DNA from: Campylobacteraceae bacterium
GTDB lineage: Bacteria > Campylobacterota > Campylobacteria > Campylobacterales > Sulfurovaceae
Direction of reading: 5' to 3'
Assembly: GCA_027038275.1 (NCBI GenBank)
Contig: JALVXC010000125.1
Coordinates: 1 to 32,729 of the forward strand
DNA length: 32,729 nt
Numbering within the stretch: the stretch's first letter is position 1; each line of letters begins with the position of its first letter. Positions 4,338 through 32,605 of this stretch are shown one piece after another. The notes below the pieces were generated by a model. That model was not told where the DNA came from. It did no database searches and saw nothing but the letters and a program-made list of their open reading frames with translations. Position numbers and translations under genes: made by a program.

Positions 4338-4454
4338 ATGCCAATTAACCCCTATACCCCACAAACTCAAAAGCCTTTCATTATTTTAAAGGTATGGTGG
4401 TTAATTTTGATGAATAGCAGAGAATTTTTAGATATTAAAAGGAATAAATCTTGA
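4338..4454 (+). CDS. Small ORF (38 aa), possible leader or membrane peptide
   Basis: This frame runs from ATG 4338 to TGA 4452-4454. An AAAGGA ribosome-binding site (about 4324-4329) overlaps the end of the HNH gene. Its TGA overlaps the TTG start of the next gene as TTGA, matching the 4-nt couplings at the other junctions nearby. The predicted peptide starts MPINPYTPQTQKPF, has a hydrophobic middle (FIILKVWWLILM) and a basic end. I do not recognise the family. It could be a real coupled small protein, a leader peptide controlling the next gene, or a remnant of a lost gene. Confidence 0.4.
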   Translation: MPINPYTPQTQKPFIILKVWWLILMNSREFLDIKRNKS

Positions 4455-6968: not shown

Positions 6969-6987
6969 AAGATTTATGGAGCTATCA

Positions 6988-11172: not shown

Positions 11173-11191
11173 TCAGAGGACTACACCCTAC
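11162..11191. terminator. Bidirectional terminator hairpin shared by queF and galU
   Basis: GTAGGGTGTAGTC (11162-11174) pairs perfectly with GACTACACCCTAC (11179-11191) around an AGAG loop. The queF stop (TAG, 11170-11172) lies in the left arm and the galU stop (TAG on the - strand, 11188-11190) in the right arm. A short T-rich stretch follows on the + strand. The position between convergent genes suggests termination in both directions. Confidence 0.8.
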
Positions 11192-12015: not shown

Positions 12016-12025
12016 TTTTATACCT

Positions 12026-13243: not shown

Positions 13244-13247
13244 TAGA

Positions 13248-14633
13248 CTATCCTACCATTTTTTTAGCGTTTACAATAACTTTGTTAACCTCGTCTTCAT
13301 ACACCTTGGCTAAATCTTTATCTGTAGATTCAAAACGTGTAACAAGTACAGGAGTAGTATTACTAGCACGAACTAAACCCCAACCATGCTCAAAATTTAT
13401 TCTTACACCATCTACATCTATAATATCTACAATTTTAGGAAAGCTACTAGGAGGATTTTTAAGTAGTTTTTTAATAGTATCAATTAAAACAAACTTCTCC
13501 TCATCGGTTGTGGCTACCTTAATCTCCTCTGTAGAGTATACTTTAGGAAGAGACTCTAACTCCTTATCTAGGTCAACTCCATCTTGTAAGAGTTCTAACA
13601 TACGCAGTGTAGCATAAATAGCATCATCATACCCAAAATAGCGATGTTTAAAGAAGATATGCCCACTCACCTCACATGCCAAATCTGCATTTGTCTCTCT
13701 CATCTTTACTTTTAGATTTGAGTGACCTGTTTTATACATAATGGCTGTTGCACCACGTCGCTCTAGCTCATCATACATCACTTGAGAACACTTTACTTCA
13801 CCAATAACAGTGGGATTTTCCATCTTCATAGCATATAGAAGTGCCATCTGGTCACCTTTAATATTGTACTTATTAGTAAGCACTGCAATTCTGTCTGCAT
13901 CTCCATCATAAGCAAAGGCAATGTCGCCCTCTTTGGCTAAAAGTGCTTTAATATCTTCTAAATTTGACTCTACCGATGGGTCTGGGTGGTGATTTGGAAA
14001 TGTTCCATCAGGCTCTAAGTATATACCCTTATAGTTTAACTCCAAAGCATCAAAAATATCGGTTATAACTGTACCAACAACCCCATTACCACCATCTATT
14101 ACTATCTTTTTGTCAAAGCCTTTTAGATGGGAAAAGTTCTCTACCATATACTCTATATACTGTTGCTTAGACTCTATTGCTATTCGTTCTGTATTAGTTG
14201 GTATTTCCATACTACTGTTTGCAATAATCTCATCACCTAAAGCATAAATATCTTCTCCAAAAAATGGAGCTTTATCTAAAGTTATCTTAAATCCATTATA
14301 CTCACTTGGATTGTGTGAACCTGTTATCATAATAGAGCCATTAACTTGCTCTTTTACATTTTTTGGCTGAACATAATTTGAAAAATAGTTTACAGGTGTT
14401 GCTACCATGCCCATATCTAACACTTTACACCCTGCAAAATTTAGCCCAGAAGCTAAGTAGTCACGTAAAATAGGAGAGTGAGTTCTTGCATCGTAACCAA
14501 TAGCTACTACACCACCTAAAGCTTTAATCTTTTTTCCCAGAAAGTAGCCAATAAGTTTTACACTTTGCTCATTTAGCTCTTTTTCAAAAATTCCTCTTAT
14601 GTCATATTCTCTAAAAATTGTTTTCTTTATCAT
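13248..14633 (-). CDS. Phosphomannomutase/phosphoglucomutase
   Basis: This 461-residue alpha-D-phosphohexomutase converts hexose-6-phosphate and hexose-1-phosphate through a phosphoserine. The active-site loop TGSHNPSEYNGFK places the phosphoserine at S106; the metal loop AYDGDADR lies at about 240-247; the sugar-binding EVSGHIFFK and the C-terminal phosphate-binding RASNTTPVLVTRFE follow. The pattern is of the dual PMM/PGM class (AlgC/ManB-like), so it could make glucose-1-phosphate for GalU, mannose-1-phosphate, or both. It heads the three-gene - strand cluster. The symbol is left blank because manB, algC and pgm cannot be separated by sequence alone. Confidence 0.93.
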   Translation of the reverse strand: MIKKTIFREYDIRGIFEKELNEQSVKLIGYFLGKKIKALGGVVAIGYDARTHSPILRDYLASGLNFAGCKVLDMGMVATPVNYFSNYVQPKNVKEQVNGSIMITGSHNPSEYNGFKITLDKAPFFGEDIYALGDEIIANSSMEIPTNTERIAIESKQQYIEYMVENFSHLKGFDKKIVIDGGNGVVGTVITDIFDALELNYKGIYLEPDGTFPNHHPDPSVESNLEDIKALLAKEGDIAFAYDGDADRIAVLTNKYNIKGDQMALLYAMKMENPTVIGEVKCSQVMYDELERRGATAIMYKTGHSNLKVKMRETNADLACEVSGHIFFKHRYFGYDDAIYATLRMLELLQDGVDLDKELESLPKVYSTEEIKVATTDEEKFVLIDTIKKLLKNPPSSFPKIVDIIDVDGVRINFEHGWGLVRASNTTPVLVTRFESTDKDLAKVYEDEVNKVIVNAKKMVG

Positions 14634-16848: not shown

Positions 16849-17787
16849 ATGATAATATTAGGTGATAGATATGTTTTTTCTAATGTAGAGTTAAACCGTT
16901 TAAAGAAAAAATTTTCTAATATTACATTTATTTCATATAAAAATAAAAGTGCTTCAGAGTCTATAAGAAAGGTTAACAAAGCACTAAAAGAGTCATCTCC
17001 TAGACTTATTGTATTAAATACACAAATAAAACTTCCTCATAGATTTTTAACTTTTTTAACTAAACTAGAACTAAAAGGGGTTCGATATATAAGCCTAGAG
17101 CATTTTTTAGAGGAGTATTTAGATAAGTGTTATATTAATCTTGACTCTAACACCAACTCCTTTTTAGAAGATATTCGTCCCTATACTCCTTTTCAATATT
17201 GTCAAAAACGTCTTATTGACTATATTTCTGTTATAACTCTTTTACCCTTTACTCTATTGGCTATAGCCTATAGTTGGTATAGGGTAAAAAAAGAGTCTCC
17301 TGGACCTCTATTTTTTAGACAAAAACGTGTAGGTCTATCTGAGAGAGAATTTACCTGTATTAAATTACGCTCTATGCATATAAATGCAGAGGAGAATGGT
17401 GCACAGTTTGCAGTAGAGAATGACCCAAGAACATTTCCTTGGGGTGCAAAAATAAGAGATAATAAAGTAGATGAGCTTATTCAGCTATGGAATGTATTTA
17501 AAGGAGAGATGCACTTTGTAGGACCTAGACCTGAGCGAAAAATATGGACAAAGGAGTTTGAAAAATCAATTCCTTACTATACTCAACGTCATGTTGTAGC
17601 TCCTGGTATTACAGGATTGGCTCAAATTAAGTATCAATATGGTTCAGGAAAGCTTGATGCTGAACAAAAATTGATGTATGACTTATACTATATAAAAAAT
17701 TGGAATATTCTTTTAGACCTTAAAATTATTTGGAAAACAGCTCTCTTTGTTCTGACTAAAAAGAGAGAAGATTTATCAAATTTCTAA
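16849..17787 (+). CDS. Initiating sugar-phosphate transferase (bacterial sugar transferase family)
   Basis: This 312-residue inner-membrane protein probably loads the first sugar-1-phosphate onto undecaprenyl phosphate to start capsule or exopolysaccharide repeat synthesis. Residues 1-110 form a soluble N-terminal part. A hydrophobic helix (about 121-144) precedes the PF02397-type catalytic domain: PGPLFFRQKRVGL (151-163), IKLRSM (171-176), DPRTFPWGAKIRD (192-204), DELIQLWNVFKGEM (208-221) and FVGPRPE (223-229). The usual DELPQ is DELIQ here. It lacks the several N-terminal membrane helices of WcaJ/WbaP enzymes and so is a short form. Its 3' end overlaps the convergent KpsC-like gene by 12 bp. 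Confidence 0.88.
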   Translation: MIILGDRYVFSNVELNRLKKKFSNITFISYKNKSASESIRKVNKALKESSPRLIVLNTQIKLPHRFLTFLTKLELKGVRYISLEHFLEEYLDKCYINLDSNTNSFLEDIRPYTPFQYCQKRLIDYISVITLLPFTLLAIAYSWYRVKKESPGPLFFRQKRVGLSEREFTCIKLRSMHINAEENGAQFAVENDPRTFPWGAKIRDNKVDELIQLWNVFKGEMHFVGPRPERKIWTKEFEKSIPYYTQRHVVAPGITGLAQIKYQYGSGKLDAEQKLMYDLYYIKNWNILLDLKIIWKTALFVLTKKREDLSNF

Positions 17788-18897
17788 CTTAAATGGTTTT
17801 AGTATTGCTCTAACTGTTCGCCTTGCACGTGGTAAGAGGTAGCCTTTTAAATTGACTCTATATCTATATAATCTGTCATTAAAATAGCGTTCTTGCTCCT
17901 CCTTTAGCTCCTCTAAAGTCTGCTCTACTTCACAAAACTCTCCTGTTTTAGGAGAGATATATCGAGGAAACAGAATAAGTGTTGCAGCTACAAGTTCATC
18001 TAATGAGAGTTTTCGTGTTCGTCTATCACACTCTCTATAGTCGGTAGTAAGTCCCCACCCTGCATAGAAAGGCATACCATAGGTAAAGACAGCTTTTCTG
18101 CGTAAAAGGGCATCAAACCCTGCTCCAGAGGTTAGAGTGTGTATCTCATCGCTTACAGCTATGCATGAGTCTATGCTAACATCTGTCTGAATCTCATTTG
18201 CACATGCATCTGTTATCTTTTTTGGAATATGACCTTCTCTATTTCCTGAAAGAACATCAGGGTGAGGTTTGTAGATAATATAGGCATTAGGGTTATTTTC
18301 TCTAACTATCTGTAGTAAATCACTATTATTAAGACCAAATGCTCCAAACTTAATAGACATATCATCTTCAACTTGTCCTGTAACCAAGATGACCTTGTCA
18401 TACTTCTCTCTGTCTATCTCTATAGTTTGGTGTGCTAAGTGGTTATATTTTGAAAATTTTGACTCAACTACAGCCTCTCTAACCTTTTTGGCTCTCTCTA
18501 AGAGTTCAGAAGAGAACTCATGATTCTCTAAAATATACTCTAAATCTGATGGTTTACGAGGGTCAAAGTAGATTCCACGAGAGTCAATAGTCAAAGAGTA
18601 AGGCTTTGCAAACCCAGACCCCAAAGCAACAGAACGAATAAAAGCATCTTCTATGCGATAGATAGTCATATTGTGCTTTTTAGCATACTCCTCTACTTCA
18701 GGAAACTCTATAATTCCATATATAAAGATATTTGAGTTGCTATCTAAGCCTTTGTCTAGTGCCTCTTTTAGGGTTTTGCAGATAAACTTTTGATTGTTAG
18801 GAGCATAAAAAAAGTTCTCTATCTGCATCATTCTCCATGGAGAGAAGTTAAAAAAGTAGAGTTTTCCTTGGTTTGAGGGGTAGCTAATAGTATTCAT
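17776..18897 (-). CDS. Single-domain KpsC-like capsule Kdo transferase
   Basis: This 373-residue protein belongs to the KpsC/LipA-type capsule biosynthesis family (PF05159). KpsC adds beta-Kdo linkers to a phospholipid on which group 2 capsules are built, acting at the inner face of the inner membrane. Family motifs are visible: RIEDAFIRSVALGSG (81-95), VTGQVEDDMSI (172-182), IIYKPHPDV (207-215), LTSGAGFDALLRRK (255-268) and TYGMPFYAGWGLT (272-284). E. coli KpsC has two such domains in about 670 residues; this protein has one, so it may add one linkage type. It has its own TATAAT (18922-18927) and may also be read through from the upstream operon. Confidence 0.82.
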   Translation of the reverse strand: MNTISYPSNQGKLYFFNFSPWRMMQIENFFYAPNNQKFICKTLKEALDKGLDSNSNIFIYGIIEFPEVEEYAKKHNMTIYRIEDAFIRSVALGSGFAKPYSLTIDSRGIYFDPRKPSDLEYILENHEFSSELLERAKKVREAVVESKFSKYNHLAHQTIEIDREKYDKVILVTGQVEDDMSIKFGAFGLNNSDLLQIVRENNPNAYIIYKPHPDVLSGNREGHIPKKITDACANEIQTDVSIDSCIAVSDEIHTLTSGAGFDALLRRKAVFTYGMPFYAGWGLTTDYRECDRRTRKLSLDELVAATLILFPRYISPKTGEFCEVEQTLEELKEEQERYFNDRLYRYRVNLKGYLLPRARRTVRAILKPFKLEI

Positions 18898-18969: not shown

Positions 18970-20160
18970 TTATTGATTAATAAATTTTACAACCTCTCCA
19001 AATATCTCCTCTTGAGCAAGATTCTCCCAACCTTTCTCGTAATCTATTAACCCCTCTATCTTCTCTTGTTCAAATAGAGTTTGGCTATTTAGATTAGATA
19101 AGTTTTGTAAATCTATCTTTTTACCAGCTACTGACTCTACTCTTGCTTGGACACCTATTTTACTGTCGTATAGTACAAAAGTTTTTATATCTTCTGCATA
19201 TATCATTGATGCCATTGCTGAAATATTACTAACTCCAGCTTCAAAGCTATATTCATTTAAATCATAAAGCTTATCTTTATACTCTAGTTTATCTTGAAAT
19301 CTCTTATGTACCCAAGGGTAGACCCAATCTGTTTTTTGGGCTACAAATATTATCTTTTTATTTAGTGCTACTAAAGCCTCTATGCTTTTTAGTGTCTGCT
19401 CTATAAGTTTAGAGTCTCTTATGCCTGTATTTGGGTGGAGTTTTACTACTATGGTTTCTATATCTAAAAGATTAGATAACTTCTCTATAAACTCTGCATT
19501 TTTATTGTAGAGGTGAAGAGTAGAGTAGTTCTCCTCCTCCATAGCTCCTTCCCATGTTGGTGCAAACAAGATAGCCTTTTTGCCATGTTTATTAGCGTTT
19601 GGAAGCACTGAACACAAGGCAGATTTTCCAACTTTAACAAACTTATACCTCTCCTGCTCTCTAAAGATTTCATGTTTAATAAAACGCTCTATTGCTAACT
19701 CTCCTGTAACTAAAATATAGTCAAATACACGTATCATCTTTTTGTAGTAGGCTATCTTTTCACTATCTCCATGCCCTATCCATACATGTTTAGAGTACAA
19801 GTTTTTGTTGATTACAGAAAAGTTATACATGCTATTGTGAGTATAGAACCAAACTTTATTCTCTGCAGAGGGTATATCTCTTAGATTAATAATACAATGT
19901 CCATGCAGTCCATACTTTTTTAAATCTCGTTCTATATACTTTACTGATTCAAAGTGGTGTTTGTAGACAATTAGAACTTCATCTTTTGGAAAAAAACCTT
20001 TTTGAAATGGTGGATATACTTGGTCTATAATATTTGTTACTTTGGAGTTAAGAAAGATAAAGTATTTATATTTGCTAATATCTGCCTCTTTTCCTTTGCA
20101 AAAGATATTTTTTCTTGCGTCTCTTAGAAAGTTTTTAATATTGGCTTTTGTAATCTTCAT
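18970..20160 (-). CDS. TagF-like CDP-glycerol glycerophosphotransferase family protein
   Basis: This 396-residue protein probably transfers glycerol phosphate, or a related polyol phosphate, from a CDP donor to a growing surface polymer. It shows the GT-B fold motifs of the family in order: VWIGHGDSEK (126-135), which replaces the usual WHG-x-P-x-K; LFAPTWEG (198-205); VVKLHPNTG (238-246). In place of the DYSS motif it has GVSNISAMAS (309-318), so it is a divergent member and its substrate may differ. It has no membrane helix and no TPRs. It is the fifth gene of the - strand operon, 5 bases after tagD, whose product would supply CDP-glycerol. It might act as a primase adding the first unit while the large fusion enzyme extends the chain. 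Confidence 0.7.
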   Translation of the reverse strand: MKITKANIKNFLRDARKNIFCKGKEADISKYKYFIFLNSKVTNIIDQVYPPFQKGFFPKDEVLIVYKHHFESVKYIERDLKKYGLHGHCIINLRDIPSAENKVWFYTHNSMYNFSVINKNLYSKHVWIGHGDSEKIAYYKKMIRVFDYILVTGELAIERFIKHEIFREQERYKFVKVGKSALCSVLPNANKHGKKAILFAPTWEGAMEEENYSTLHLYNKNAEFIEKLSNLLDIETIVVKLHPNTGIRDSKLIEQTLKSIEALVALNKKIIFVAQKTDWVYPWVHKRFQDKLEYKDKLYDLNEYSFEAGVSNISAMASMIYAEDIKTFVLYDSKIGVQARVESVAGKKIDLQNLSNLNSQTLFEQEKIEGLIDYEKGWENLAQEEIFGEVVKFINQ

Positions 20161-20165: not shown

Positions 20166-20630
20166 TTACTCAAAATCTTTTTTAAGTAACTCTATTACTT
20201 CAAAAGCATTAATAATATCCTCTTTTGGAATAGACATAAAATTGGTTAATGACTTTTTGAGTTGTGTAGTAGATATATCTTTTGTTCTCTCCAAATATAC
20301 TACTTCACAATACTCTTTAAGAAAGTCAAACTTACCTTTCCAATCATCACCAATAGCAAAAATATCTACATTATATCTTTTTATATCATCTACTTTTTGC
20401 TCCCAACTCTCTTCTGGAATGACTTTGTCAACACACTTAATATTGGCAACTATCTCTGCTCTTTGTTCGTAGGGAATCATAACTTTTTTCCCTTTACCAC
20501 GATTAAACTCATCTGTTGAGACAGCAACTATAAGTTCATCAGCCATATCTTTTAGACGTTGAAGTAATCTTAAATGTCCTATATGGAACATGTCGAATGT
20601 TCCGTAGGTTATTATGGTTTTTTTATTCAC
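20166..20630 (-). CDS. tagD: Glycerol-3-phosphate cytidylyltransferase (TagD-like)
   Basis: This 154-residue enzyme makes CDP-glycerol from CTP and sn-glycerol-3-phosphate, the donor for teichoic-acid-type polymers. The fold is unmistakable: TYGTFDMFHIGHLRLL (HxGH CTP-binding motif), DELIVAVSTDEFN, a YEQRAEIV segment, FAIGDDW and the ERTKDISTT signature near the end. I chose the GTG start at 20630 because GAGAGG (20640-20645) lies 9 bases upstream and the protein then begins like TagD. A longer frame with TTG at 20651 would overlap the preceding stop (TTGA) but has a poor ribosome-binding site. Ethanolamine-phosphate cytidylyltransferases share the fold, but the RTKDISTT pattern favours glycerol-3-phosphate. 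Confidence 0.88.
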   Translation of the reverse strand: MNKKTIITYGTFDMFHIGHLRLLQRLKDMADELIVAVSTDEFNRGKGKKVMIPYEQRAEIVANIKCVDKVIPEESWEQKVDDIKRYNVDIFAIGDDWKGKFDFLKEYCEVVYLERTKDISTTQLKKSLTNFMSIPKEDIINAFEVIELLKKDFE

Positions 20631-20647
20631 TGTTTTATACCTCTCTT

Positions 20648-22015
20648 TCAACCTATAGCCAAAAATAAAAACTCTTTCCCATTTTTAGCTATGTTTTTAT
20701 ACGATGCTATCTTAGATAGTAGACTACTCTTTTCTAAATCAACCACAAGTTCATACTCTATTGAGTTGTTTGTATCTATAACAGAGAGTAGTTTCTCTTT
20801 TAATTTAAACAGACTTATCTCTGTAGTAGATTCATTTAGTAAAATATCTGTATACTTTTTTAAAGTAACATCATCATAGACTCTTAAGCTCATATTTTGA
20901 TTTTTTGTATAGATAATTAGTTTTGTAAGTTTTAACTCTGCTTTAATATCTATTTTTTTAGTTATAGTTTTACTACAGTCAATATCTTTTGATTTTATCT
21001 CTGCTAATTCATAAAAAAGATTATTTATAACTAACATTAAAATATTAATAGTTTTAGCAGCTACATCAGGGGGTGTTTTTATTTGAGGGTGACATACATT
21101 TATATAGTTTATTTTATTATCTTTATCATTCTCTTTAATAATGCTATTGATTGCCTCATAGATAGGAGATTTCTCTGAGTAGATAATATTGATATTTTCA
21201 GGTATGTTATTAGTTTTCATTAAAGTAGTAAACTTCTCTTGTTTTGTTTTAGGGTAGATTCTATACTCTCCATACTGCTTTGTAAAGTGAGAATCTTTAG
21301 AGTGTTGTTCATGATACTCATCAGATACTACAGGGTCAACTGCTACTGCTTTATATTTTCCTAAGATACCATGATAGAGTACAGCTGTTCCACCTTTAGA
21401 ACCTCCATAGAGAACAACATCTTTTTTATCTATACTATTTGACTCTAAAATATATTTTAATAATCCCTGAATATCATCTTCTATTGTATTAGAAAAAGTT
21501 GTGTTCATATAGAAGTTTCCAATAACTCCACCAACATCAGCAATACGTAAAATATAACTATTTTGAGGAATATACTTTGAGATAGTTCCAAAGTTAGTAA
21601 AGAAATTTCTAACAGCAATATCTGCATTAAATGCTCTATCTGCAACAGAAGAGAAGATTACAATGAGTCTGTTAGGAGCAAAATTTAAAAGAGGCTTCTC
21701 TAAAGTATAGTAGATATTATTGTATATCTGTAAGTTTTTGACTTTTATATTAGGTTGAAACTCTTTTGCTGTTGTAAACTTTTCAAATCTTGAGTTGCCT
21801 AAGGAGGAGGAGACTAAAAAAAAGCCATTTGAAGCTAATCTTACAACAAGCTCTGTAACTCTCTTTTCACGTCTAGCAAAACCAATCAGATTATGCCCTC
21901 TCTCTTTTATATCTCCTACTTTTGAACGGTCAATATATAATGTTTGAGTTGGAAGTTCAAAATCTAATGGCTCTTTTAACATATCTTCTGTTAAAACTAT
22001 TTTAAGCTCTTTCAT
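20648..22015 (-). CDS. Alpha/beta-hydrolase-like capsule protein (XcbB/CpsF or Asp2-like)
   Basis: This 455-residue protein contains an alpha/beta-hydrolase core with a GGSKGG nucleophile elbow (204-209; predicted S206) and a later conserved-looking His (H309 in CHPQIKTP). E281 is a possible third member of the triad. The elbow follows a DVVLYGGSKGG strand as in the XcbB/CpsF capsule family and in Asp2, whose related proteins act on glycans as acetyltransferases. No signal peptide or membrane helix is seen. It lies between the large glycosyltransferase and tagD, with 4-base spacing and an AGGAG ribosome-binding site inside the upstream stop. It probably modifies or acylates the polymer or helps its assembly. 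The family label is from motif recognition and is uncertain. Confidence 0.6.
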   Translation of the reverse strand: MKELKIVLTEDMLKEPLDFELPTQTLYIDRSKVGDIKERGHNLIGFARREKRVTELVVRLASNGFFLVSSSLGNSRFEKFTTAKEFQPNIKVKNLQIYNNIYYTLEKPLLNFAPNRLIVIFSSVADRAFNADIAVRNFFTNFGTISKYIPQNSYILRIADVGGVIGNFYMNTTFSNTIEDDIQGLLKYILESNSIDKKDVVLYGGSKGGTAVLYHGILGKYKAVAVDPVVSDEYHEQHSKDSHFTKQYGEYRIYPKTKQEKFTTLMKTNNIPENINIIYSEKSPIYEAINSIIKENDKDNKINYINVCHPQIKTPPDVAAKTINILMLVINNLFYELAEIKSKDIDCSKTITKKIDIKAELKLTKLIIYTKNQNMSLRVYDDVTLKKYTDILLNESTTEISLFKLKEKLLSVIDTNNSIEYELVVDLEKSSLLSKIASYKNIAKNGKEFLFLAIG

Positions 22016-22019: not shown

Positions 22020-25000
22020 CTACTCTCCTAAAACTTTTGACGAGAACATATCTAATGCTTTTTGATTATACTCTTCATAATTAAACTCTTTAGAGATACC
22101 ATCTTTATTTTCTAAAAATCTTAACATACCTTTAGCTAATCCATCTTCACTATTTTCAACCAATAGACCGAGTCCATCTTTTAATAGACCTCTTGGTCCA
22201 GAAATATCTGTACTAATAACAGGCTTTCCTAAAACCATAGCTTCCAATAAAACTAAACCTTGACCTTCATAGTTAGAAGACAATACAAAACAATCAGAGG
22301 CTTTTAGATAAGGCATTGGATTAAACTTTTGCCCTAGCAATAAAACTCTTTTTTTGAGAGAGAGTTTTTTTATTAGCTGTTGTAGTTCACCCCTCAACGG
22401 CCCATCTCCAATAATAACCAACTTGCTCTTATTCTCTTTTTTAGCTACTTTAGAAAAGGCTTTAATTAGTTTTTTATGGTCTTTTTCAGGAGAGAGTCTA
22501 GCTATATTAATAAAAACTTTACTATTTTTAAAAATATCAATATCTTCTATCTTCTCTTTTGAGCGTTCAATAATCTCATTAGGATTTAGTACATTATCAC
22601 AGTAGTCAAACTTATCTAAAGAGATTTCATACTTTTTAGCTAAATTTTCTCTATTTAAATCGTTTGCATCACTTGATACTGAAATCAATTTATCATAAAA
22701 TTTATAGGTTTGAAAGTTACCATACAGATATGGAAAGCGTGTTTGAGCCTCTCCTAACATATCAGCATGAAGGTAGCTTATTTTATTGCAAGAAGAGTTT
22801 TGATAGGCACTAAAGAGTCTAATCCAATAGCTATTGTATCCTTCAAAACTTATAATAGTATCAAATCGAGCCATACCAAATACTCTTAAAAACTCTCTAT
22901 GATAACTACTATTAAACATCTCTAATTTTTCATTGGTCGAAAATGATTTATGAATATTAAAGTTATCAATAATCCATTTCTCTTCTAGTCTATTTACCAT
23001 TCTTGCAAATCTTCCAATAACTTTAATATCATATTTCACTTTATTAAATTGTGCTATTTTTTTATCATCTATTTTAATAGCATTTGGGTCAATAGCTAAG
23101 GTTACACTATATTTATTGGTATCAATAGAGTTGATTAGGTTTAAAAGAGAAGTTGTTACTCCATTAGGAATAAAAGCACCCCCATAGATTAAGATAGATT
23201 TCTTCTCTTTAGAGGTAATAATATTTGCACCCTCTTGTTTATTAAAGAAAAACAAATCAATAACTCTACTTGTAGCTAACCCATCATCATAAGCACAAAA
23301 CCTATCTTGTGCTTTTTGTTGTTTTGTTGTAATAGTTCCTTTTTTAATCAATCTCTCTATTGCTTGAGCCACTTCACTATTTGTCTTATATATATCTTCT
23401 CCTACCTCTTCTAAAGGAAAATATAATCCTCGTTCAGACTCATACTCCTCTCTATCGTAGGTATAGTAGATAATAGGTTTTCCTACAGCCATATAGTCAA
23501 AAGAGATACTAGAGTAGTCTGTAATTAATATATCAACAATGGACAAGAGGCTATTGGTATCAATAGTAGGTGGAACAACAACATCTTTGATTTCATTAAC
23601 ACTATCTAAGATTTTTTCCACCATATGATGCCCTCTAAAGATAAAGTTTATATCTAGTTGTTTAAAGAGCTTTATATCTACAATTAATTTATCTATATCG
23701 AACTTTGACCCTGCTAGTGTTCCTCTCCACGTTGGTGCATAAAGAACTATTGGCTTACTATTGTTAATTCCAAGTCTATTTTTAATCTCCTCTTTACGTT
23801 CAGATGAGGCATTAAGTGTTAAGTCTTGTCTTGGATAGCCTGTTTGTGCAACCACTCCTGTATATATATCATTAATATCAAAGTTATCAGTTAAAATTTT
23901 GGTAGTAAAGCTGTTGGGACTAATTATATGAGATGCATGTAAAAAGTTTCTTGTAGCATTTTTATGTGCAAAGAAGTCATCTTTAATATCTTTTCCAAGA
24001 GTCTTAATAGGTGTTCCATGCCATGTATTTAGGTATAGTTGCCCCTCTTTTCTAATGAAGTATTCAGGAAAAGTAACATTATTAATAAGATATTTAGCCT
24101 TTGCTAAGTATCGCATATATAAATCACAATTTCGTTTCACAAAAACTATATGGGTATCTTTTCTTAGCTCTTGAGGAATTTGTTTTTTGTCATTAATAAC
24201 CCATATATGTCTATAGTTACTAAATCTCTCATCTTTATAGATAGCTTGAAATATTGCATAAGGGTTACAAGAGAATGAGCCTCCATGATAGCTTTCATAA
24301 AGGATTATATTGTCTTCAATTTTATATCGTTCATAATACTCTGTATAGTTTACAACCTGTTTTAATCCTATATTTTTATTGTACTCTGTCTCTATAATAC
24401 CATAGGCATTTTGCATAATCTTCTGTTCAATAAATATATCACTTGCCTCTTTAAACTTATTTTGTTTATAGAGTGTATAGGCATAGGCAAAATATAGATT
24501 TGAGTCAAACTCCTCTTTTCTAGCTAAGAGTTCACTATACGCCTCTTGGGCTAACTCCCAATCTTCTAACTCTTCTGCTTTTGTAGCTAAAGTATACAAT
24601 GTGTCTAAATTGGTTGTATCTGATTTTAATTTTTCATAAGCAAAGGTTAAACTCTTTTGAGACTGTAATAATAAAAGCTCATTGAGATAGATATTCTCTT
24701 TTTCTTTAGAAGTGTCATCTTTCATTAATAAGAAAGCTTCACAAGCCTCTTTATAACGTTTTAATTTAGCTAAAGTATATCCTAAACGGTAGTATCTATA
24801 TGGTATCTTTTTGGCTCTTTGAGAAGCTGAAAAGGCATAAGCATCAACTGCCTCTTCCCACTTTTCTTGTCTCTCATATACAAAACCTAATCTATAATAC
24901 CAATCACTATTTATAGGATTTAGATTTAGTGCCTTTTTATAGTAGTTCTCTGCTTCATTCCATAAATATAGTCTATCGGTTACAAAAGCATAACGATAGA

Positions 25001-25652
25001 GAAGTTCTGCATGATTTGGATTTTTTTTCAATCTACTTTTATAACTCTTTTTTGCTTTTTCCCATTGCCATTTTTGAGTGTGAAAGAGTCCTTCTCCTAA
25101 CTCCTTATATATACTATTTTTTGAAAGAGAAATTGCTTTACTATAAACCTCTTTAGCTTTCTCTTTATTGCCTATCTCTTCAAGCATTGTTCCATAGTAA
25201 AAATAATCCTCAGATGTTAACTCTTTTTTATTAGGTATTTTTTCAAAAACTTCAATAGCTTTTTCAAGTTTTTTCATATTTCTTAAAGCTAAAATATATT
25301 TACGATACCATTTTATATCAACATTAGGGTTTAACTCTATTGCTTTTTCTAAAATATCACAAATCTGCCACCATAGAGCTTTTTTATATAGTAGTTCACT
25401 CAATTCACAATAGTAGTCAGCCTTAGGCTTAATCTCAATAGCTTTTTGTAAAGCTACCTCTGCTCTTGAAAAGTATCCCTCTTTTTTTAACTCTTTAAAA
25501 ATAAAGTAGTAGTATTGATGTAATGGAATATACATCTCAATAGCTTTACTAACATACTCTTTTAGCTCATCTTTACTAAAACGCTTCTTTGCATAATCTT
25601 TTGCAAAGATATGAGGTTGTTTTACTAGTTTATAAAGCCCTTTAACGGTCAT
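22020..25652 (-). CDS. Giant fusion: TPR, CDP-glycerol glycerophosphotransferase and GT4 glycosyltransferase
   Basis: This 1210-residue protein joins three modules. TPR-like repeats fill residues about 40-425 (for example YYRLGYTLAKLKRYKEACEA). A complete CDP-glycerol glycerophosphotransferase lies at about 440-800, with NTWHGTPIK (542-550), YAPTWRG (638-644), RGHH (673-676) and TDYSS (711-715). A GT4-type glycosyltransferase lies at 817-1205, with IYGGAFIPNGV, the donor-site ARLSPEK (1051-1057), GDGPLRGEL and EGQGLVLLEAM (1129-1139). The two catalytic modules would allow one polypeptide to add both a glycerol phosphate and a sugar, as a bifunctional polymerase for an alternating polymer; TPRs may measure or anchor the chain. 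It begins 2 bases after its paralogue, with an AAGGA site inside that gene. Specificities are unknown. Confidence 0.88.
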   Translation of the reverse strand: MTVKGLYKLVKQPHIFAKDYAKKRFSKDELKEYVSKAIEMYIPLHQYYYFIFKELKKEGYFSRAEVALQKAIEIKPKADYYCELSELLYKKALWWQICDILEKAIELNPNVDIKWYRKYILALRNMKKLEKAIEVFEKIPNKKELTSEDYFYYGTMLEEIGNKEKAKEVYSKAISLSKNSIYKELGEGLFHTQKWQWEKAKKSYKSRLKKNPNHAELLYRYAFVTDRLYLWNEAENYYKKALNLNPINSDWYYRLGFVYERQEKWEEAVDAYAFSASQRAKKIPYRYYRLGYTLAKLKRYKEACEAFLLMKDDTSKEKENIYLNELLLLQSQKSLTFAYEKLKSDTTNLDTLYTLATKAEELEDWELAQEAYSELLARKEEFDSNLYFAYAYTLYKQNKFKEASDIFIEQKIMQNAYGIIETEYNKNIGLKQVVNYTEYYERYKIEDNIILYESYHGGSFSCNPYAIFQAIYKDERFSNYRHIWVINDKKQIPQELRKDTHIVFVKRNCDLYMRYLAKAKYLINNVTFPEYFIRKEGQLYLNTWHGTPIKTLGKDIKDDFFAHKNATRNFLHASHIISPNSFTTKILTDNFDINDIYTGVVAQTGYPRQDLTLNASSERKEEIKNRLGINNSKPIVLYAPTWRGTLAGSKFDIDKLIVDIKLFKQLDINFIFRGHHMVEKILDSVNEIKDVVVPPTIDTNSLLSIVDILITDYSSISFDYMAVGKPIIYYTYDREEYESERGLYFPLEEVGEDIYKTNSEVAQAIERLIKKGTITTKQQKAQDRFCAYDDGLATSRVIDLFFFNKQEGANIITSKEKKSILIYGGAFIPNGVTTSLLNLINSIDTNKYSVTLAIDPNAIKIDDKKIAQFNKVKYDIKVIGRFARMVNRLEEKWIIDNFNIHKSFSTNEKLEMFNSSYHREFLRVFGMARFDTIISFEGYNSYWIRLFSAYQNSSCNKISYLHADMLGEAQTRFPYLYGNFQTYKFYDKLISVSSDANDLNRENLAKKYEISLDKFDYCDNVLNPNEIIERSKEKIEDIDIFKNSKVFINIARLSPEKDHKKLIKAFSKVAKKENKSKLVIIGDGPLRGELQQLIKKLSLKKRVLLLGQKFNPMPYLKASDCFVLSSNYEGQGLVLLEAMVLGKPVISTDISGPRGLLKDGLGLLVENSEDGLAKGMLRFLENKDGISKEFNYEEYNQKALDMFSSKVLGE

Positions 25653-25654: not shown

Positions 25655-28600
25655 TTAATCCTTGTTTTTATCTCCATAGCGAAGCTCTAAAGCCTTAGCA
25701 TACTCTTCTTTACTCATTTTCAATATGTTATTTAATACATCATCTACCTCTATTAGAGAAAAACTATGTAATCTTTTTAGAAAAATAAAATTGCTCAAAG
25801 GGTCATGCCAATGAAAGTTAAAGTACTTAACACCTAATTTTCCTCTACTTACATAGTTTTTATCATAGTTGTTTTCTAAAAATAGATTAGTATTGAAAAC
25901 TTTTATCTTTTTTACATTAAATCTCATAAGGTCTAAAATAACACGCTGTATTCCACTTGGTGCACCTTTAAGCATTGGGTTAGCAAATGGGTGAGCCGCA
26001 TAGTATCTTTTTCGTATAGGTTTAGTAACCCCTGTAAAAGCTATATCATCTAATGAGTGAGGGCTATCTACAATGACCCAATCTAGCTCATTTAACCAAT
26101 TAATCTTTTTAGCCTCTATTCTGTCTCTTAATAATCTAGCCTCTATATAAAATGAGATATTTGTCTTTTTTCCAAAACTATTTTGAGAGAGTTTATCTCT
26201 TCCCATATAGTTGAAACGTAAAACTATATCATAACTATCAATCTCATCTCCTAAATTTAAGCTAGAATCTACAGGACCTACAATAGCAACCGATTTATTT
26301 TCAATATATGATGCAAATTTTTGCTCTAAAGGTGTTAAAATTTGTTTATAAAACTCTATTGCAGACTCCTTTCTTCCAAAGTAGAGTTCTGTAGCACCAA
26401 TTAACTGTAGGTTTTTTTTGATATAGGATAGCTCTTTTTTTAATAGTACATTTTTTAATCTATCATACTCTTCAATAGATTGGCTCTCTGCCATAGCTGT
26501 TAAGCGATATTGAGCATATTTTACATTTATTGTACGAGTTAATGATAAGATAGATTTGAGTGCATTCTCTCTAGCATAATAGTAAAGGGTATACTTTTGT
26601 ACCAATAAAAATAGGTTAGCCACAATAAACCATACAGTATGAGGTAGATACTCTGCTTCTAACTTTTGACTAAAAGATTTACTAAACTCTTCAATCTTAG
26701 CTAAAAAGAGTTCATTGGTACTCTCTCTCATATCACTATCATCAGTCTTTACATACTCTATAAGTTCAACAAATGCTAAGTAGAAGTTGTTCCACTCTTT
26801 AGATTTATCTTTAAGCTTTTCTAGTAAAATCAAAATACCTGTAAAACTCTCTGCATTAAATCTATGTTTAACGTAAGAGACAATCTCATTTATCTCTCTT
26901 TTCTCAACCTCTAAAGCATATCGAATCTGTGACTCACGAATATAGTAGAGTGTAGGGTAGCGATTGTCTGTTATGGGATATTTCTCTTTTACCTCTTGAA
27001 ACTTCTCTAAAGCATCTCTATACTCTTTTTTATTGAAGTGTTCAATTGCTGCTTGATACAAGCTATCTAAACTATATTTAAAATTGTGGCTTAGAGATAG
27101 TACTTTATGCTCAAACATCTCTAAAGCCTCTTTATTGTAATCTTCTGCATTAAATCTATTTAGATTTAGAGATGAAGTTAAAAATTTTGACATGCCCTCG
27201 TAGAGACCATTTTTAGAATTTTCAACTAAGTAGCCTAGATTGTTCTTTAAAACACCTCTTGGGCCTTCAATATTGGTACTAATAATAGGTTTATTTAAAA
27301 TCATAGCCTCAAAGAGTACTAAGCCTTGCCCTTCATGATTTGATGAGAGTACAAAGCAATCTGATGCTTTTAGATAAGGCATAGGGTTAAACTTCTGTCC
27401 CAATAGAAATACTCTATCTTCTAATGATAGCTCTACTATTAACTCCTTTAAATCCTCCTCTAGTGGTCCTTGTCCAAGAATAACTAACTTAATATCACTA
27501 TACTCTTTAGTCAATTTAGAGAAGGCGTAGATTAGTTTTCTCTGCCCCTTTTCAGGAGAGAGTCTTGCTATATTAATAAAGACTCTACTATTTTTAAAAA
27601 TATCCTTCTCATACTCATCTGAAATTGGAGCTTTTGACTTTTCAATAATCTCTTTAGGGTTTAAAATGTTATTACAGTAGTCAAATAGTTCTCTATCTAA
27701 TCCAAGATTTTTTTGATTTATTTGGCAAGAGTCTTTAGAGACTGAGATAAGTTTAGTATAGCTTTTGTAGAACTTCATATTTCCATAAAGGTATGGAAAA
27801 CGAGTTTTTGCTTCACTTAAAATATCACTATGAAAATAGAGCACTTTAGGCACCTCTTCAACGGAAGCAAAGAGACGCAACCAATATTGGCTATAGCCTT
27901 CAAAATTTACAATTAAATCAAACTTCTCTCCTTGAAAAACACGTTGATACTCTCTTCTATATGCTCTCTTTACAATACTCCACATCTCTTTAGAAGCCAA
28001 ATCATGATGTAGATTTAACTTACCAATTAACCACTTCTCCTCTAAGCTCATAAGCATAGTTGATTTTTTCTTAATAAGTGTTATGTCTGAGTTTAATCTT
28101 TTAAACTGCTCTTTGTATTGTTCATCTTTACTTAACTGCTCTTCATCTACTACAACATATACTCTATATCTATCTTTATCAATAGCATTGACTAGATTTA
28201 AAAAAGAGGTAGTAATGCCATTAGGAATAAAGTGTCCTCCATAGAGCAAAATAGATTTTTTCTTGCTCTTCTCTTCTTTATAGTATCTTTGTTGAAAAAA
28301 AATCTCCTCAACTCTTTTTAGTGGGTCGTTAGTCTCTTTAGTAAACTCATTTAAACAAAACTGCCCCTCTTTTTGAATAAAATAGTCAGGTAGTTTTGTA
28401 TTGTTAATAATATATTTACTACTACATAAATAGCGTCTATATAGATTACTATTTTTGTTGATTAAGATAACATTTCTATTCTCTTTAACCTCTTTTGGTA
28501 TCTCTTCAATCCTATTTATAACCCAAATATGTCTATATGGGTCAAAGTGAACATCTTTTTGAATCTCCTTAAATAGGTCTAAAACAACAGATTTTCCAAA

Positions 28601-29752
28601 AGAGTCTTGATAACCCTCATAGACAATTAAACGTTCATCTAGCTCTAATCTCGCATAATACTCAACGTAGTTGATACTCTGTTGTAAAACGCTGTTTTTA
28701 TGATACTCACTCTCTACTAACCCATGAGCATCTTGAATAATACGTTGCTCTAAAAAGAGTTCACTTGCCTCTTTGTATCTCTCTTGTTGGACTAGTGTTG
28801 ATGCCAATAAAAAATAGATATCTGCATTAAACTCTTCTGCTCTTGCTAAATACTCTTTGTAAGCATACTCTGCAACACGCCAAGATTTTAAAGATTCTGC
28901 TTTTTTTGCAAACTCAAGCCATGCATTTAAAGATAGTGGTTCATTTTCAAGAAGATATTTATGTAGTAAAACTCCGTTCTCTTTTTCTACAGATTTATTC
29001 TTTACTCTATTTAATAGCAATGGCTTTTTTTTCATCATTAAAAAAGCTTCACACGCCTCTTTATATAGCTCTTTTTTTCTAAGTAGATATCCTAACCTAT
29101 AGTAGAAGTAGGGTAGATGTTGTTTGTGCTTAAAGACTGCAACCAAATAGGATTCAATAGCTTTGTCATACTTTTTTTGTCTCTCTTGAACAATTCCTAA
29201 ACGATGGTAGAAATGTATAGGTTCATCACTCCCTAAAATAGCATTTAAATAGGTCTCTTCAGCTTTAGCCCAACTATAACAACGGTCATAAGCCAAACCT
29301 TGCTTGTATGCCATCTGAATAGAGAGCTTTTTCTCTTTAAAGCTCTCTTCATATGCTTTAGAAGCACTACTCCAATCCCCTAATGCTTCAAAAAATACAC
29401 CCTTTCCAAATAGTTTTGCATTTTTTTTATTATCTAACTCTATTGCTTTAGCATAAAATAGTTCTGCTAACTCTTTTTGATTATTTCTCTCTAGGGCATA
29501 AGCATAGTCAAATGATTCATCAGAGGTTAACGGAGCAATAGCCTCTACTTGCTTATAAACTTTAGTAACCTCTTTAAAACGATACATCTTTTTTAAAGAG
29601 AAGATATACTCTAAAAGTAGTTCTCTTTTTGGTTGATATGTTAAAGATATAACCTTTTTATATACCTCTACAACTTGCCACCATAAGCCCTCTTTTTTGA
29701 GTGGCTCTATCTTTTTATAGTAATATAAAGCATCTTTTTTTTCAGATATCAT
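25655..29752 (-). CDS. Giant fusion: TPR, GT4 and GT29-like glycosyltransferase with a gutted glycerophosphotransferase domain
   Basis: This 1365-residue paralogue of the next gene has TPR-like repeats at about 10-340. Residues 355-467 match the start of the neighbouring glycerophosphotransferase domain (for example YRHIWVIN, YFIQKEGQ). At about 467-477 the sequence jumps to the end of that domain, so the WHG, APTWRG and DYSS motifs are absent. A full GT4 domain follows (498-880; LSPEKGQ, EGQGLVLFEAM), then helical repeats (895-1145). The C-terminal module (1152-1345) has VAIVGPVDSSLNLGDEID followed by SYDIVLRFNY, then GAPSGIQRVILDLMRF and FHWHDP, which match the L, S and VS motif layout of GT29 sialyltransferases. 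It heads the - strand operon. Predicted to add two different sugars; the GT29 donor (CMP-sialic acid or CMP-Kdo type) is inferred. Confidence 0.8.
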   Translation of the reverse strand: MISEKKDALYYYKKIEPLKKEGLWWQVVEVYKKVISLTYQPKRELLLEYIFSLKKMYRFKEVTKVYKQVEAIAPLTSDESFDYAYALERNNQKELAELFYAKAIELDNKKNAKLFGKGVFFEALGDWSSASKAYEESFKEKKLSIQMAYKQGLAYDRCYSWAKAEETYLNAILGSDEPIHFYHRLGIVQERQKKYDKAIESYLVAVFKHKQHLPYFYYRLGYLLRKKELYKEACEAFLMMKKKPLLLNRVKNKSVEKENGVLLHKYLLENEPLSLNAWLEFAKKAESLKSWRVAEYAYKEYLARAEEFNADIYFLLASTLVQQERYKEASELFLEQRIIQDAHGLVESEYHKNSVLQQSINYVEYYARLELDERLIVYEGYQDSFGKSVVLDLFKEIQKDVHFDPYRHIWVINRIEEIPKEVKENRNVILINKNSNLYRRYLCSSKYIINNTKLPDYFIQKEGQFCLNEFTKETNDPLKRVEEIFFQQRYYKEEKSKKKSILLYGGHFIPNGITTSFLNLVNAIDKDRYRVYVVVDEEQLSKDEQYKEQFKRLNSDITLIKKKSTMLMSLEEKWLIGKLNLHHDLASKEMWSIVKRAYRREYQRVFQGEKFDLIVNFEGYSQYWLRLFASVEEVPKVLYFHSDILSEAKTRFPYLYGNMKFYKSYTKLISVSKDSCQINQKNLGLDRELFDYCNNILNPKEIIEKSKAPISDEYEKDIFKNSRVFINIARLSPEKGQRKLIYAFSKLTKEYSDIKLVILGQGPLEEDLKELIVELSLEDRVFLLGQKFNPMPYLKASDCFVLSSNHEGQGLVLFEAMILNKPIISTNIEGPRGVLKNNLGYLVENSKNGLYEGMSKFLTSSLNLNRFNAEDYNKEALEMFEHKVLSLSHNFKYSLDSLYQAAIEHFNKKEYRDALEKFQEVKEKYPITDNRYPTLYYIRESQIRYALEVEKREINEIVSYVKHRFNAESFTGILILLEKLKDKSKEWNNFYLAFVELIEYVKTDDSDMRESTNELFLAKIEEFSKSFSQKLEAEYLPHTVWFIVANLFLLVQKYTLYYYARENALKSILSLTRTINVKYAQYRLTAMAESQSIEEYDRLKNVLLKKELSYIKKNLQLIGATELYFGRKESAIEFYKQILTPLEQKFASYIENKSVAIVGPVDSSLNLGDEIDSYDIVLRFNYMGRDKLSQNSFGKKTNISFYIEARLLRDRIEAKKINWLNELDWVIVDSPHSLDDIAFTGVTKPIRKRYYAAHPFANPMLKGAPSGIQRVILDLMRFNVKKIKVFNTNLFLENNYDKNYVSRGKLGVKYFNFHWHDPLSNFIFLKRLHSFSLIEVDDVLNNILKMSKEEYAKALELRYGDKNKD

Positions 29753-29812: not shown

Positions 29813-32605
29813 TTAAAACTCTTTCCATCTATATTCAATACGAATACCACTATTATTGTCTATAGTTTTAATTAAATTATTATCTTTATCATAAACATAG
29901 TCGATAGATTTATTATATAATCTATGTTTTGAATCATAAATATAAGTTGAGACATGATTTCCTTCAACTCTTTTGACTATTAAACCATTTATATACTCGT
30001 TTGTTATCTCTTTATCATAAGTACCATCATTATCCATATCATATTTTTCTGTTAATCTATTATGATAGTTGTCGTAGGTATAAATTATTTTACTTTTAGT
30101 TGACAACTTTTCAACTGATTCTTCAAAAGATTCCATAATCTCTCCATTAGTATCATCATATATAGTATAAGCAGGGGTTACTTTAGTAACTAAAATTTCA
30201 CTCAGCTCTTCAACTAGATTATTATTAGTATCATAATTAAAATCTATTGTATTTTTAGTACTTATTAAGATATTTATATATATTTGAGCTCCTCCAAAAT
30301 CTTGAATATACTTAGGTTCTGTAGAATTTGATTCTACAACTTTACGTACTAAAACATTTTCTTTATTATAAAAATATAACGTTCTTTGATTACTATTACT
30401 TGAGGTATAATTATTAAATTCAGGATCAGAAAAGGAAGACTCTTCTAAATACAGCTCTTTAATTACTTGATTAAAGTGATTATAGAAGTATTTTGTTCTA
30501 GATATGGACTTACTACTAATATTATCTATATCATAGGAGTCAAAAACTTTATCAAATATTTTGAGTAATCCATTTTTATCATAAGTATATGTTTCAACTT
30601 GATTATATCCATTATGTGAATACGCTTCATGATATATTTGATTTTTGGACAAAAGTTTAAACTCCAAAACTTCTAAATCAACTCTAAATTCATTTAAGTC
30701 TGTTTCGCCATCTTTTAGATTTAACGAAATCGTATATAGACCTTTTTTATCAAATTTCATATAAGGGGTAGTACTATTCTCTTCTCCTAAAAAAGCTTTA
30801 CTTTCATCAGGCTTTTCTACTAAACTCCAATTGTATGTTAGATTTTTATCTTTAATTTTATCACTTAAGTTTGCTTCCAAAACAATTGTATTTCCAACAT
30901 GTAAAATTCCAGAGTAGTCTATCTTGAAAGGTGGAGCTGTAAATGGGTCTGTTCCTTTTGTTTTCTCTTCTGTATTACTCACACCATCTTTATCACTATC
31001 TATATAAACAGTTACTAATCTTTGAGCTATTGCTTTATTTCCTGCACTATCGTTTACACTATATGTAATTATATTTTTTCCAATAACTGAGCTATCTACA
31101 GTTCCATTAATGATAATATTTGAGCTTATCTCCCCATCCGCATTGTCATAAGCTGTTGCATTTAGCTCTATGTATTTTTTATATTTATAGATTTTAATTT
31201 TAGAGTTTCCATTTAGTCTTATAATAGGAGGAGTTGTATCTTTTATAACAGTAACGATTCCTTTTGTAGTTGCTATATTTCCTGCACTATCTGTAACTGT
31301 AAAAATAACCTCTTTCTCTCCAAGTGTAGAAGTATCTACCTTTGAGATAGATATAGAAGAACTTAAGTCTCCATCTGCATTATCTTTTGCTGTTATATTA
31401 AATTCATTATAATCATGATTTTGATAAATAGTAATATTTCTATCTCCTATAAATTCTAAGATGGGAGCCTCTATATCTTTAATTACATTTACTACTCTAG
31501 TTCGACTGACTTTAATGCCTTCACTATTAGTAACGCTATAGGTTATTACATTTTTTCCTACAACAGATGTATCAACATCTCCTGTAATAATAATTTTTGA
31601 ACTTATATCTCCATCTTTATTATCAAATGCAGTAGCATTTAACTCTTTATAGGTCTGATTTAAATAAATAGTTATATTCTCATCACCATTTAGAGTAATA
31701 GAAGGAAGAGGACAAGCCCCACCATCTTTGATAATCCACCCAAAGTTAGAAATTATATAACTTCTACTATCTTTTGCTGTATAACAAGTTTCACCAACAT
31801 CAAAAGTTACATTAGGAGATAAATTTAACTTACTCCATGCCTTTAATATTTTATCATAATCATGGGTTGATAACTCTAAAAAATTAGTAAAGATTCCATC
31901 CATATTTTTAACATTAGAAATGTTCCATTTGCTCATATCGAAAGAGAAAGATGTATCTGCAAACATAGATGACATATCTTCTACATTAAAGACATTCCAA
32001 TCACTTATATCTTGATTAAATCTATCAAAAATCATAGCAAACATACCTGACATCTCTTTTACATTTGATACGTCCCATTTAGTAATATCTAGTTTTCCAC
32101 TAGAAGCCATAAACATATAACTCATATTTTTAACATTAGAAACATCCCAATCACTTAAATTTGAATCTGTATTAACCATTGCAAACATATAGCTCATATC
32201 AGTTACTTTAGATAAATCAGGAGTATCAGAAGCATTAATCTCTAAGTTACTACAACCATCAAATGCATGATGCATAGAGAGCCATTTAATATCTCCCCAT
32301 TGATTTACAGCAATTATTTTTTTGCTATCATCATTATTGTTAAAGTAAATTTGAGGAAAGTCTCCTAATATTTTTACAGTATACTCTCCTGTCTTTGAAT
32401 AGGTATGTGTTATATCTCCTATAACATTACTATCTTTTTTCCCATCACCCCAATCTATAGAGTAGTTATAACCATCACCAATAGTAGGTATAGTTATTTT
32501 ATTGTTATCTATATTGTCTATTCTCCATTTTATAATAAATGGTCTACTTTTATTATTGTTTATAGTTTGTATTTTCTTTTTTGTTTCACTATCATTACAA
32601 CCTAA
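29813..32605 (-). CDS. BspA/DUF285-Ig-PKD surface lipoprotein, lacking start codon and signal peptide
   Basis: The open frame covers 930 codons from 32605 and begins L-G-C-N-D-S-E, a lipobox-like end of a lipoprotein signal. A TAG stop (32606-32608) lies directly upstream, and no ATG, GTG or TTG occurs in frame until ATG 32275, 110 codons in. Residues after the Cys form a PKD-like domain (about to 32290), then DUF285 repeats of the type WDVSNVKNMSYMF. Three DUF5011/Ig-like repeats follow (192-266, 271-345 and 350-424 counted from ATG 32275), a DSDKDGVSNTEE calcium-type motif (426-437), another PKD-like domain (about 455-537) and YD-like tyrosine-rich repeats to the end. It would be a surface adhesin. 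Translation from 32275 would give an unexported 820-residue protein, so it is broken, a silent cassette, or affected by a sequence error. Confidence 0.75.
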   Translation of the reverse strand, partial: LGCNDSETKKKIQTINNNKSRPFIIKWRIDNIDNNKITIPTIGDGYNYSIDWGDGKKDSNVIGDITHTYSKTGEYTVKILGDFPQIYFNNNDDSKKIIAVNQWGDIKWLSMHHAFDGCSNLEINASDTPDLSKVTDMSYMFAMVNTDSNLSDWDVSNVKNMSYMFMASSGKLDITKWDVSNVKEMSGMFAMIFDRFNQDISDWNVFNVEDMSSMFADTSFSFDMSKWNISNVKNMDGIFTNFLELSTHDYDKILKAWSKLNLSPNVTFDVGETCYTAKDSRSYIISNFGWIIKDGGACPLPSITLNGDENITIYLNQTYKELNATAFDNKDGDISSKIIITGDVDTSVVGKNVITYSVTNSEGIKVSRTRVVNVIKDIEAPILEFIGDRNITIYQNHDYNEFNITAKDNADGDLSSSISISKVDTSTLGEKEVIFTVTDSAGNIATTKGIVTVIKDTTPPIIRLNGNSKIKIYKYKKYIELNATAYDNADGEISSNIIINGTVDSSVIGKNIITYSVNDSAGNKAIAQRLVTVYIDSDKDGVSNTEEKTKGTDPFTAPPFKIDYSGILHVGNTIVLEANLSDKIKDKNLTYNWSLVEKPDESKAFLGEENSTTPYMKFDKKGLYTISLNLKDGETDLNEFRVDLEVLEFKLLSKNQIYHEAYSHNGYNQVETYTYDKNGLLKIFDKVFDSYDIDNISSKSISRTKYFYNHFNQVIKELYLEESSFSDPEFNNYTSSNSNQRTLYFYNKENVLVRKVVESNSTEPKYIQDFGGAQIYINILISTKNTIDFNYDTNNNLVEELSEILVTKVTPAYTIYDDTNGEIMESFEESVEKLSTKSKIIYTYDNYHNRLTEKYDMDNDGTYDKEITNEYINGLIVKRVEGNHVSTYIYDSKHRLYNKSIDYVYDKDNNLIKTIDNNSGIRIEYRWKEF

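Follow-up and report, generated by a model that had tools for sequence, protein, structure and literature searches.

Capsule polymerases that carry a tetratricopeptide repeat (TPR) region, a TagF-like transferase (CgoT) and a glycosyltransferase of family GT4 (CgaT), in this order in one chain, are known from Cps3D and Cps7D of Actinobacillus pleuropneumoniae (PMC5974469; PMC11666461). The same module set occurs in HS1.09 of Campylobacter jejuni HS:1 (PMC11924219). Activity was demonstrated for Cps3D and Cps7D (PMC5974469; PMC11666461) and for HS1.09 (PMC11924219). The sugar is galactose in all three (PMC11666461; PMC11924219), and HS1.09 alternated glycerol phosphate and galactose in vitro (PMC11924219). 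The two modules of Cps7D were mutated separately (H612A and H743A vs. R1123A and K1132A), and activity was restored in trans (PMC11666461). Here, we describe a gene, P, in a 32,729-nt stretch (the window) of contig JALVXC010000125.1 from a Campylobacteraceae bacterium of the Sulfurovaceae (assembly GCA_027038275.1). Its architecture, fold, active-site residues and gene neighbourhood were established directly, and they indicated that P is very probably a TagF-like/GT-B capsule polymerase that would alternate glycerol phosphate and hexose.

Architecture and active sites of P

P was an uninterrupted frame with an ATG start and no internal stop. The domain order from the N to the C terminus was TPR, TagF-like cytidine diphosphate (CDP)-glycerol glycerophosphotransferase and GT4. 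In Pfam, PF04464 (Glyphos_transf) matched residues 444–801 (E = 9.6e-84; score 281.9 bits, cut-off 22.1), PF00534/PF13692 matched residues 1032–1190 (E = 1.4e-37), and several TPR families matched, with the best stretches at about residues 129–272. These matches were far beyond chance. PF04464 was found in 3 of 14 well-known genomes used as controls and at three places in the host genome, where P was the strongest. The features of P were as follows.

22020..25652, minus strand: P, predicted TagF-like/GT-B capsule polymerase (CpsD-like), 1210 amino acids (open reading frame (ORF), Pfam, match to PDB 8qoy)
24429..25574, minus strand: residues 27–408, helical region of TPR type, in which five additional helices (321–408) precede the catalytic part (Pfam; mean predicted local distance difference test score (pLDDT) of the model 88.4)
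23250..24356, minus strand: residues 433–801, TagF-like glycerol-3-phosphate transferase domain, CgoT-like (PF04464, E = 9.6e-84; TagF 3l7k_D, Z 22.8 over 363 residues)
22026..23204, minus strand: residues 817–1209, retaining GT4 hexosyltransferase domain, CgaT-like (PF00534; BshA, TarM and PimA folds, Z 21–22)
24018..24020, minus strand: H545 of WHG, equivalent to Cps3D H479, the proposed base (residue alignment)
23628..23630, minus strand: H675, equivalent to Cps3D H609 (residue alignment)
22482..22499, minus strand: R1052 and K1057, equivalent to Cps3D R982 and K987 (residue alignment)
22242..22268, minus strand: EX7E motif, E1129 to E1137, equivalent to Cps3D E1059 and E1067 (residue alignment)

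A first-pass annotation, made from the sequence, had proposed a one-chain protein of TPR, CDP-glycerol transferase and GT4 modules, and the intact frame and the Pfam domains confirmed it. The two motifs that it had named were also located: WHG is W544-H545-G546, and LSPEK ends at K1057. Two complete catalytic modules on a TPR scaffold had been thought to suit alternating transfer of glycerol phosphate and sugar, and the architecture and active-site residues agreed with such a role for hexose. The claim that the module set differs from that of known bifunctional capsule polymerases did not hold, since Cps3D/Cps7D and HS1.09 have these modules in the same order.

The best PDB sequence match of P was the crystal structure of Cps3D (8qoy; 756.7 bits, E = 4.1e-226), in which CgoT-CgaT aligned end to end (P 433–1205); a separate match placed P 63–307 on the Cps3D TPR. 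An AlphaFold model was built from a 22-row alignment (pLDDT 88.4, predicted template modelling score 0.87). Foldseek ranked 8qoy first of 1832 structures (E = 1.3e-79, template modelling scores 0.65/0.75). A second structure comparison also ranked it first (Z 38.5, 855 residues aligned, 2.6 Å, 40% identity), and the next rows were TagF and single GT4 enzymes at Z 22–23 (next-best row, 22.8). The staphylococcal wall teichoic acid enzymes TagF, TarL and TarM each resemble one catalytic half of P (TagF Z 22.8, TarM Z 21.6); they are separate enzymes, whereas the halves are fused in P.

Sixteen Cps3D residues named in PMC11666461 were compared after their numbering had been checked. Fifteen were identical in P (H545, G546, T547, P548, R608, A639, R673, H675, S714, S715, D719, R1052, K1057, E1129, and E1137), and the exception was F391, which is Y455 in P. 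The two histidines, the Arg/Lys pair and both glutamates were invariant in all 22 aligned rows, P included. Relatives were retrieved by a scan of species genomes with the CgoT-CgaT alignment (best 80 of 460 relatives, 76 loci) and one viral-contig locus was added, giving 77 loci with 84 ORFs that contained both domains. CgoT came first in 84 of 84; because these loci were chosen by similarity to both domains, the counts inform on domain order and on how the N-terminus varies but not on frequency. The retention of key residues, with both histidines and EX7E among them, and of the CgoT-CgaT order made it extremely improbable that only one module of P is active in the host and that it makes a plain chain of glycerol phosphate or of hexose, even though a paralog directly upstream of P, named Q, shows that module loss occurs at this locus.

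P shared with Cps3D the N-terminal TPR, the TagF-like CgoT, the C-terminal GT4 CgaT, both histidines, the Arg/Lys pair, EX7E, the fold and a neighbouring CTP:glycerol-3-phosphate cytidylyltransferase (GCT) gene. All five structural and gene characters of a CpsD-type polymerase were present in P: a two-histidine TagF-like domain, a GT-B domain with Arg/Lys and EX7E, TPR, the 8qoy fold and a GCT gene alongside. HS1.09, from the same phylum, combines a helical N-terminus, TPR, TagF-like and GT4 parts in one chain as in P but is shorter (1095 amino acids as described), a comparison made by description (PMC11924219).

The TPR region was longer than Pfam shows, which the first-pass annotation had missed, as it had the paralogy of Q. 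TPR-type helices occupied residues 27–308 of the model and were followed by five more at 321–408; in the structural alignment, residue 326 of P and those after it were superposed on Cps3D starting at its residue 262. The stretch that joins TPR to CgoT was longer in P than in Cps3D (A. pleuropneumoniae serotype 3), by roughly 100 residues and five helices. Cps7D (A. pleuropneumoniae serotype 7) has the same modules and a longer-TPR layout like that of P, likened by description and not residue by residue. Helices 16–20 of its longer TPR take the place of the dimer partner, and Cps7D is described as a monomer (PMC11666461). Because P carries five extra helices like Cps7D, a Cps3D-type TPR dimer is not expected, and we infer from the model that P is Cps7D-like and monomeric. 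Truncation of the TPR in Cps3D/Cps7D made the enzymes less processive, shortened the products and abolished extension of a poly(glycerol-phosphate) primer (PMC11666461). These effects concern processivity and primer use, and thus the proposal that the TPRs set chain length is true only in that sense and not in that of a ruler.

Based on the characterized homologs, the cytoplasmic CgoT-like domain would take glycerol phosphate from CDP-glycerol, the product of the neighbouring cytidylyltransferase, and transfer it to the hexose at the end of the nascent chain, H545 acting as the base. The CgaT-like retaining GT4 would then add an alpha-linked hexose from a uridine diphosphate (UDP)-sugar to the new terminal glycerol. 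Repeated cycles would yield a poly(glycosyl-glycerol phosphate), which is a teichoic-acid-like polymer. The TPR region would support processivity and primer use as in Cps3D/Cps7D, and its extra helices suggested a self-contained monomer.

Gene neighbourhood and capsule locus

P was the second of six co-directional minus-strand genes that ran from 29752 down to 17776 in the order Q, P, XcbB/CpsF, cytidylyltransferase, a 396-amino-acid protein and Capsule_synth. The gaps or overlaps between them were a few bases each, except for 72 bases ahead of the last gene. The four genes after P were as follows.

20648..22015, minus strand: XcbB/CpsF family capsule protein, 455 amino acids (NF033892, score 247.6 bits, cut-off 125)
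20166..20651, minus strand: glycerol-3-phosphate cytidylyltransferase, CpsB/TagD-like, which makes CDP-glycerol (TIGR01518, score 166.5 bits, cut-off 165.4)
18970..20160, minus strand: 396-amino-acid protein, candidate CpsA-like transition transferase, distantly TagF-like (profile-profile match)
17776..18897, minus strand: single-domain Capsule_synth protein, similar to Kdo (3-deoxy-D-manno-oct-2-ulosonic acid) transferases of the KpsC C-half type, 373 amino acids (PF05159, E = 2.5e-40)

The gene for CDP-glycerol supply lies beside P, as expected for this enzyme family. A 1723-amino-acid fusion of a TPR-CgoT-CgaT polymerase with a CpsF-like domain was observed in Aquabacterium (L056:4255-9423), which links XcbB/CpsF functionally to the polymerase type of P. 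The 396-amino-acid protein had no Pfam match. Its profile matched PF04464 proteins in the CpsA position (probability 89, E = 2.3e-6, 111 columns), including those sited likewise after the cytidylyltransferase in loci L039 and L040, and it shared 26% aligned identity with a PF04464 protein of genome G022. Because of this match, a CpsA-like transition transferase is our best guess for it. The Capsule_synth protein was 46% identical to the C-terminal half of a 693-amino-acid protein in locus L026.

Some observations weighed against P as a capsule polymerase of the known kind. The whole-chain Foldseek superposition on 8qoy was imperfect (root-mean-square deviation 25.3 Å over 1139 columns), which was attributed to the differing TPR region. 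The LicD-type CpsC, which makes the primer in A. pleuropneumoniae (PMC5974469; PMC11666461), adjoins Cps3D, whereas P has no adjacent LicD CpsC; none was present on its contig, and the sole LicD match of the genome was a 257-amino-acid frame on another contig (C13). The host genome, an assembly of 188 contigs, had a single PF05159 protein (373 amino acids) and no KpsS-like second one, so that only part of the classical poly-Kdo anchor route is present in the assembly. Given the off-contig LicD and the single PF05159 protein, the locus was assigned neither to the A. pleuropneumoniae 3/7 type nor to proven group 2.

A locus without LicD CpsC would also suit another explanation, namely that P is a two-step linker enzyme or transition transferase that places one or a few glycerol-phosphate/hexose units between an anchor and another polymer. 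The paralog Q (GT4 plus GT29-like) could make that other chain, and a PF02397 sugar-phosphate-type initiating transferase is encoded nearby on the other strand. However, the form found in P, a full-length TPR-CgoT-CgaT protein complete in its catalytic residues, is also the polymerizing form in Cps3D, Cps7D and HS1.09, and no other candidate polymerase was seen in the six-gene set. We consider the linker role quite improbable, and the bifunctional alternating polymerase, as first proposed, is the best reading of P.

A galU-pgi-pgmG trio at 11188–14633 (pgmG below its cut-off) would provide UDP-glucose. The PF02397 gene (16849–17787, plus strand) was EPS_sugtrans/WcaJ-like, below curated NCBIfam cut-offs, and its end overlapped the end of the opposite-strand Capsule_synth gene. 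Directly upstream of the capsule genes, near the contig end, there was an 820-amino-acid surface-type protein (29813–32275, minus strand) with DUF285/PARCEL-like repeats and Ig-like and HYR/PKD domains. Elsewhere in the window, GyrB (6976–10605, plus strand; 1209 amino acids) was interrupted by an intein (Intein_splicing 439–864, HNH_3 583–605). An AAA_15/AAA_21 ATPase followed by an HNH protein (1057–4325, plus strand) was a possible defence-type pair, and it adjoined a Schlafen/AlbA_2 protein (4451–5878). Rfam gave no match within the window.

The tandem paralog Q

Q was 53% identical to P in CgaT; for the TPR and the first part of CgoT the figure was 36%. It is the less usual item of the locus, and P is the ordinary one. 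The parts of Q were as follows.

25655..29752, minus strand: Q, tandem paralog, 1365 amino acids, with TPR, amputated CgoT, intact CgaT, second helical region and GT29-like domain (similarity to P)
28340..28672, minus strand: residues 361–471, only the first part of CgoT, cut off at the position where WHG is due, with neither catalytic histidine (alignment with P)
27089..28270, minus strand: residues 495–888, CgaT-like GT4 with R730, K735, E807 and E815 present (alignment)
25658..26365, minus strand: residues 1130–1365, GT29-like (sialyltransferase/ulosonate-transferase-like) domain (5-row family profile A7)

The CgoT of Q stopped at CLN where P has YLNTWHG; it ended ahead of WHG, and thus both catalytic histidines were lost. 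In genome G022 of the same genus, an 824-amino-acid protein (L034:11973-14444) consisted of TPR, a half-CgoT with the same end point and a GT29-like tail, and its CgaT was the next gene. An isolated assembly error in Q was made unlikely by this shared end point, although both genomes are draft assemblies. In an 8-row tree of the TPR end and half-CgoT, Q grouped with the G022 protein (support 93). As its CgaT grouped with P, Q looks like a mosaic.

Q-type N-termini were found in 5 of 100 relatives at E ≤ 1e-20, the host genome included, and half-domains were seen only in Q and the G022 protein among the matched ORFs. As to the other matches, G055 had a full polymerase, G562 was taken to have one, and G018 had an assembly gap. 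A deletion in the G018 relative (residues 316–630 missing) was considered and rejected, as the assembly has a block of unknown bases there. Among the ORFs of L026–L036 and L039–L115, the only half-CgoT found was that of G022.

The tail profile matched seven PDB entries at E ≤ 10, and all seven were GT29 sialyltransferases (E = 0.00027–0.018). PF00777 was weakly seen, below its cut-off, in all three tail-family members scanned (Q: 15.7 bits vs. 23, E = 0.01). The model of the Q C-terminus (pLDDT 46.5, three sequences) was too poor for a fold comparison. Homologs of the tail were encoded near TPR-CgoT-CgaT polymerases in L107 and L115 and beside a KdsB-like cytidine monophosphate (CMP)-Kdo synthetase in L117. 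The tail occurred in 4 of 397 genomes of the phylum at E ≤ 1e-8, host included, and the viral contigs scanned with it gave no match. A GT29 domain is present in an E. coli capsule ORF, and the family transfers ulosonic acids from CMP donors (PMC13171606, 2026). The literature matches listed for GT29 fused to a TagF-like polymerase included none about a Q-like protein. The tail of Q is possibly a CMP-ulosonic acid transferase, and a role in priming, capping or branching is a guess.

Tentatively, and as a rather unlikely arrangement, P and Q could form a two-chain synthase in which Q docks on P via the shared TPR-type region and starts, caps or branches the chain. Q would then be a polymerase descendant that lost CgoT from the residue before the catalytic histidine onward and kept the TPR platform and GT4. 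The donor for its GT29-like domain may be a CMP-ulosonic acid, for instance CMP-Kdo, and Q, itself of polymerase origin, would prime or terminate the chain as an integral part of the synthase.

Distribution and relatives of the polymerase

CgaT relatives at E ≤ 1e-45 were present in 9 of 398 genomes of the order, host included. A genome-contig scan with the single P sequence (first 801 residues) gave no match. In a CgaT tree of 94 rows, built by a quick method, P stood with Q (SH-like approximate likelihood ratio test, 99) among Sulfurovum-like Campylobacterota proteins, and proteins from G018 and G562, genomes of the host's genus, sat in this clade. On this basis the host is presumed to be Sulfurovum-like. 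The Campylobacter/Helicobacter relatives formed a clade separate from P.

The part before CgoT varied among the 77 loci. In the 81 ORFs with the CgoT start covered, it had at least 250 residues in 56, fewer than 120 in 24 and 199 in one. The TPR of the short ORFs in L040 and L073 may lie in part or wholly elsewhere; the remaining short ones were from Actinomycetota and Bacillota. TPR-less CgoT-CgaT fusions of about 830–870 amino acids were observed in Microbacteriaceae and Bacillota (L083–L114, e.g., L097, L098, and L110), and those of Arthrobacter were TPR-bearing. The retrieved relatives (best 80 of 460) included Arthrobacter, Leifsonia, Corynebacterium, Actinomyces, Paenibacillus and Staphylococcus simulans.

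Two side observations were made on these proteins. In Sulfurovum, a 945-amino-acid protein (L040:1771-4608) lay between two tandem polymerases. It had no NCBIfam match at 1e-10, and it contains what we take, from a motif, to be a LicD-like stretch. An N-terminal K..P..F..D motif, which we presume to be one of capsule proteins, was seen in P, L035 and L039; the loose pattern occurred in 13 of 872 ORFs, some clearly by chance.

P is an ordinary addition to a published enzyme family, whose module set was already known. It extends this polymerase family, studied in pathogens, to an apparently Sulfurovum-like lineage of Campylobacterota, and lends support to the idea that bacteria other than pathogens also make teichoic-acid-like surface polymers. 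The fused relatives ranged from Campylobacterota to Arthrobacter, and judging from them this fused enzyme may also produce polymers of the teichoic-acid type in Gram-positive bacteria. The start and end of capsule chains have only recently become open to test, and Q, a disarmed copy of the polymerase with a GT29-like domain, is a concrete candidate.

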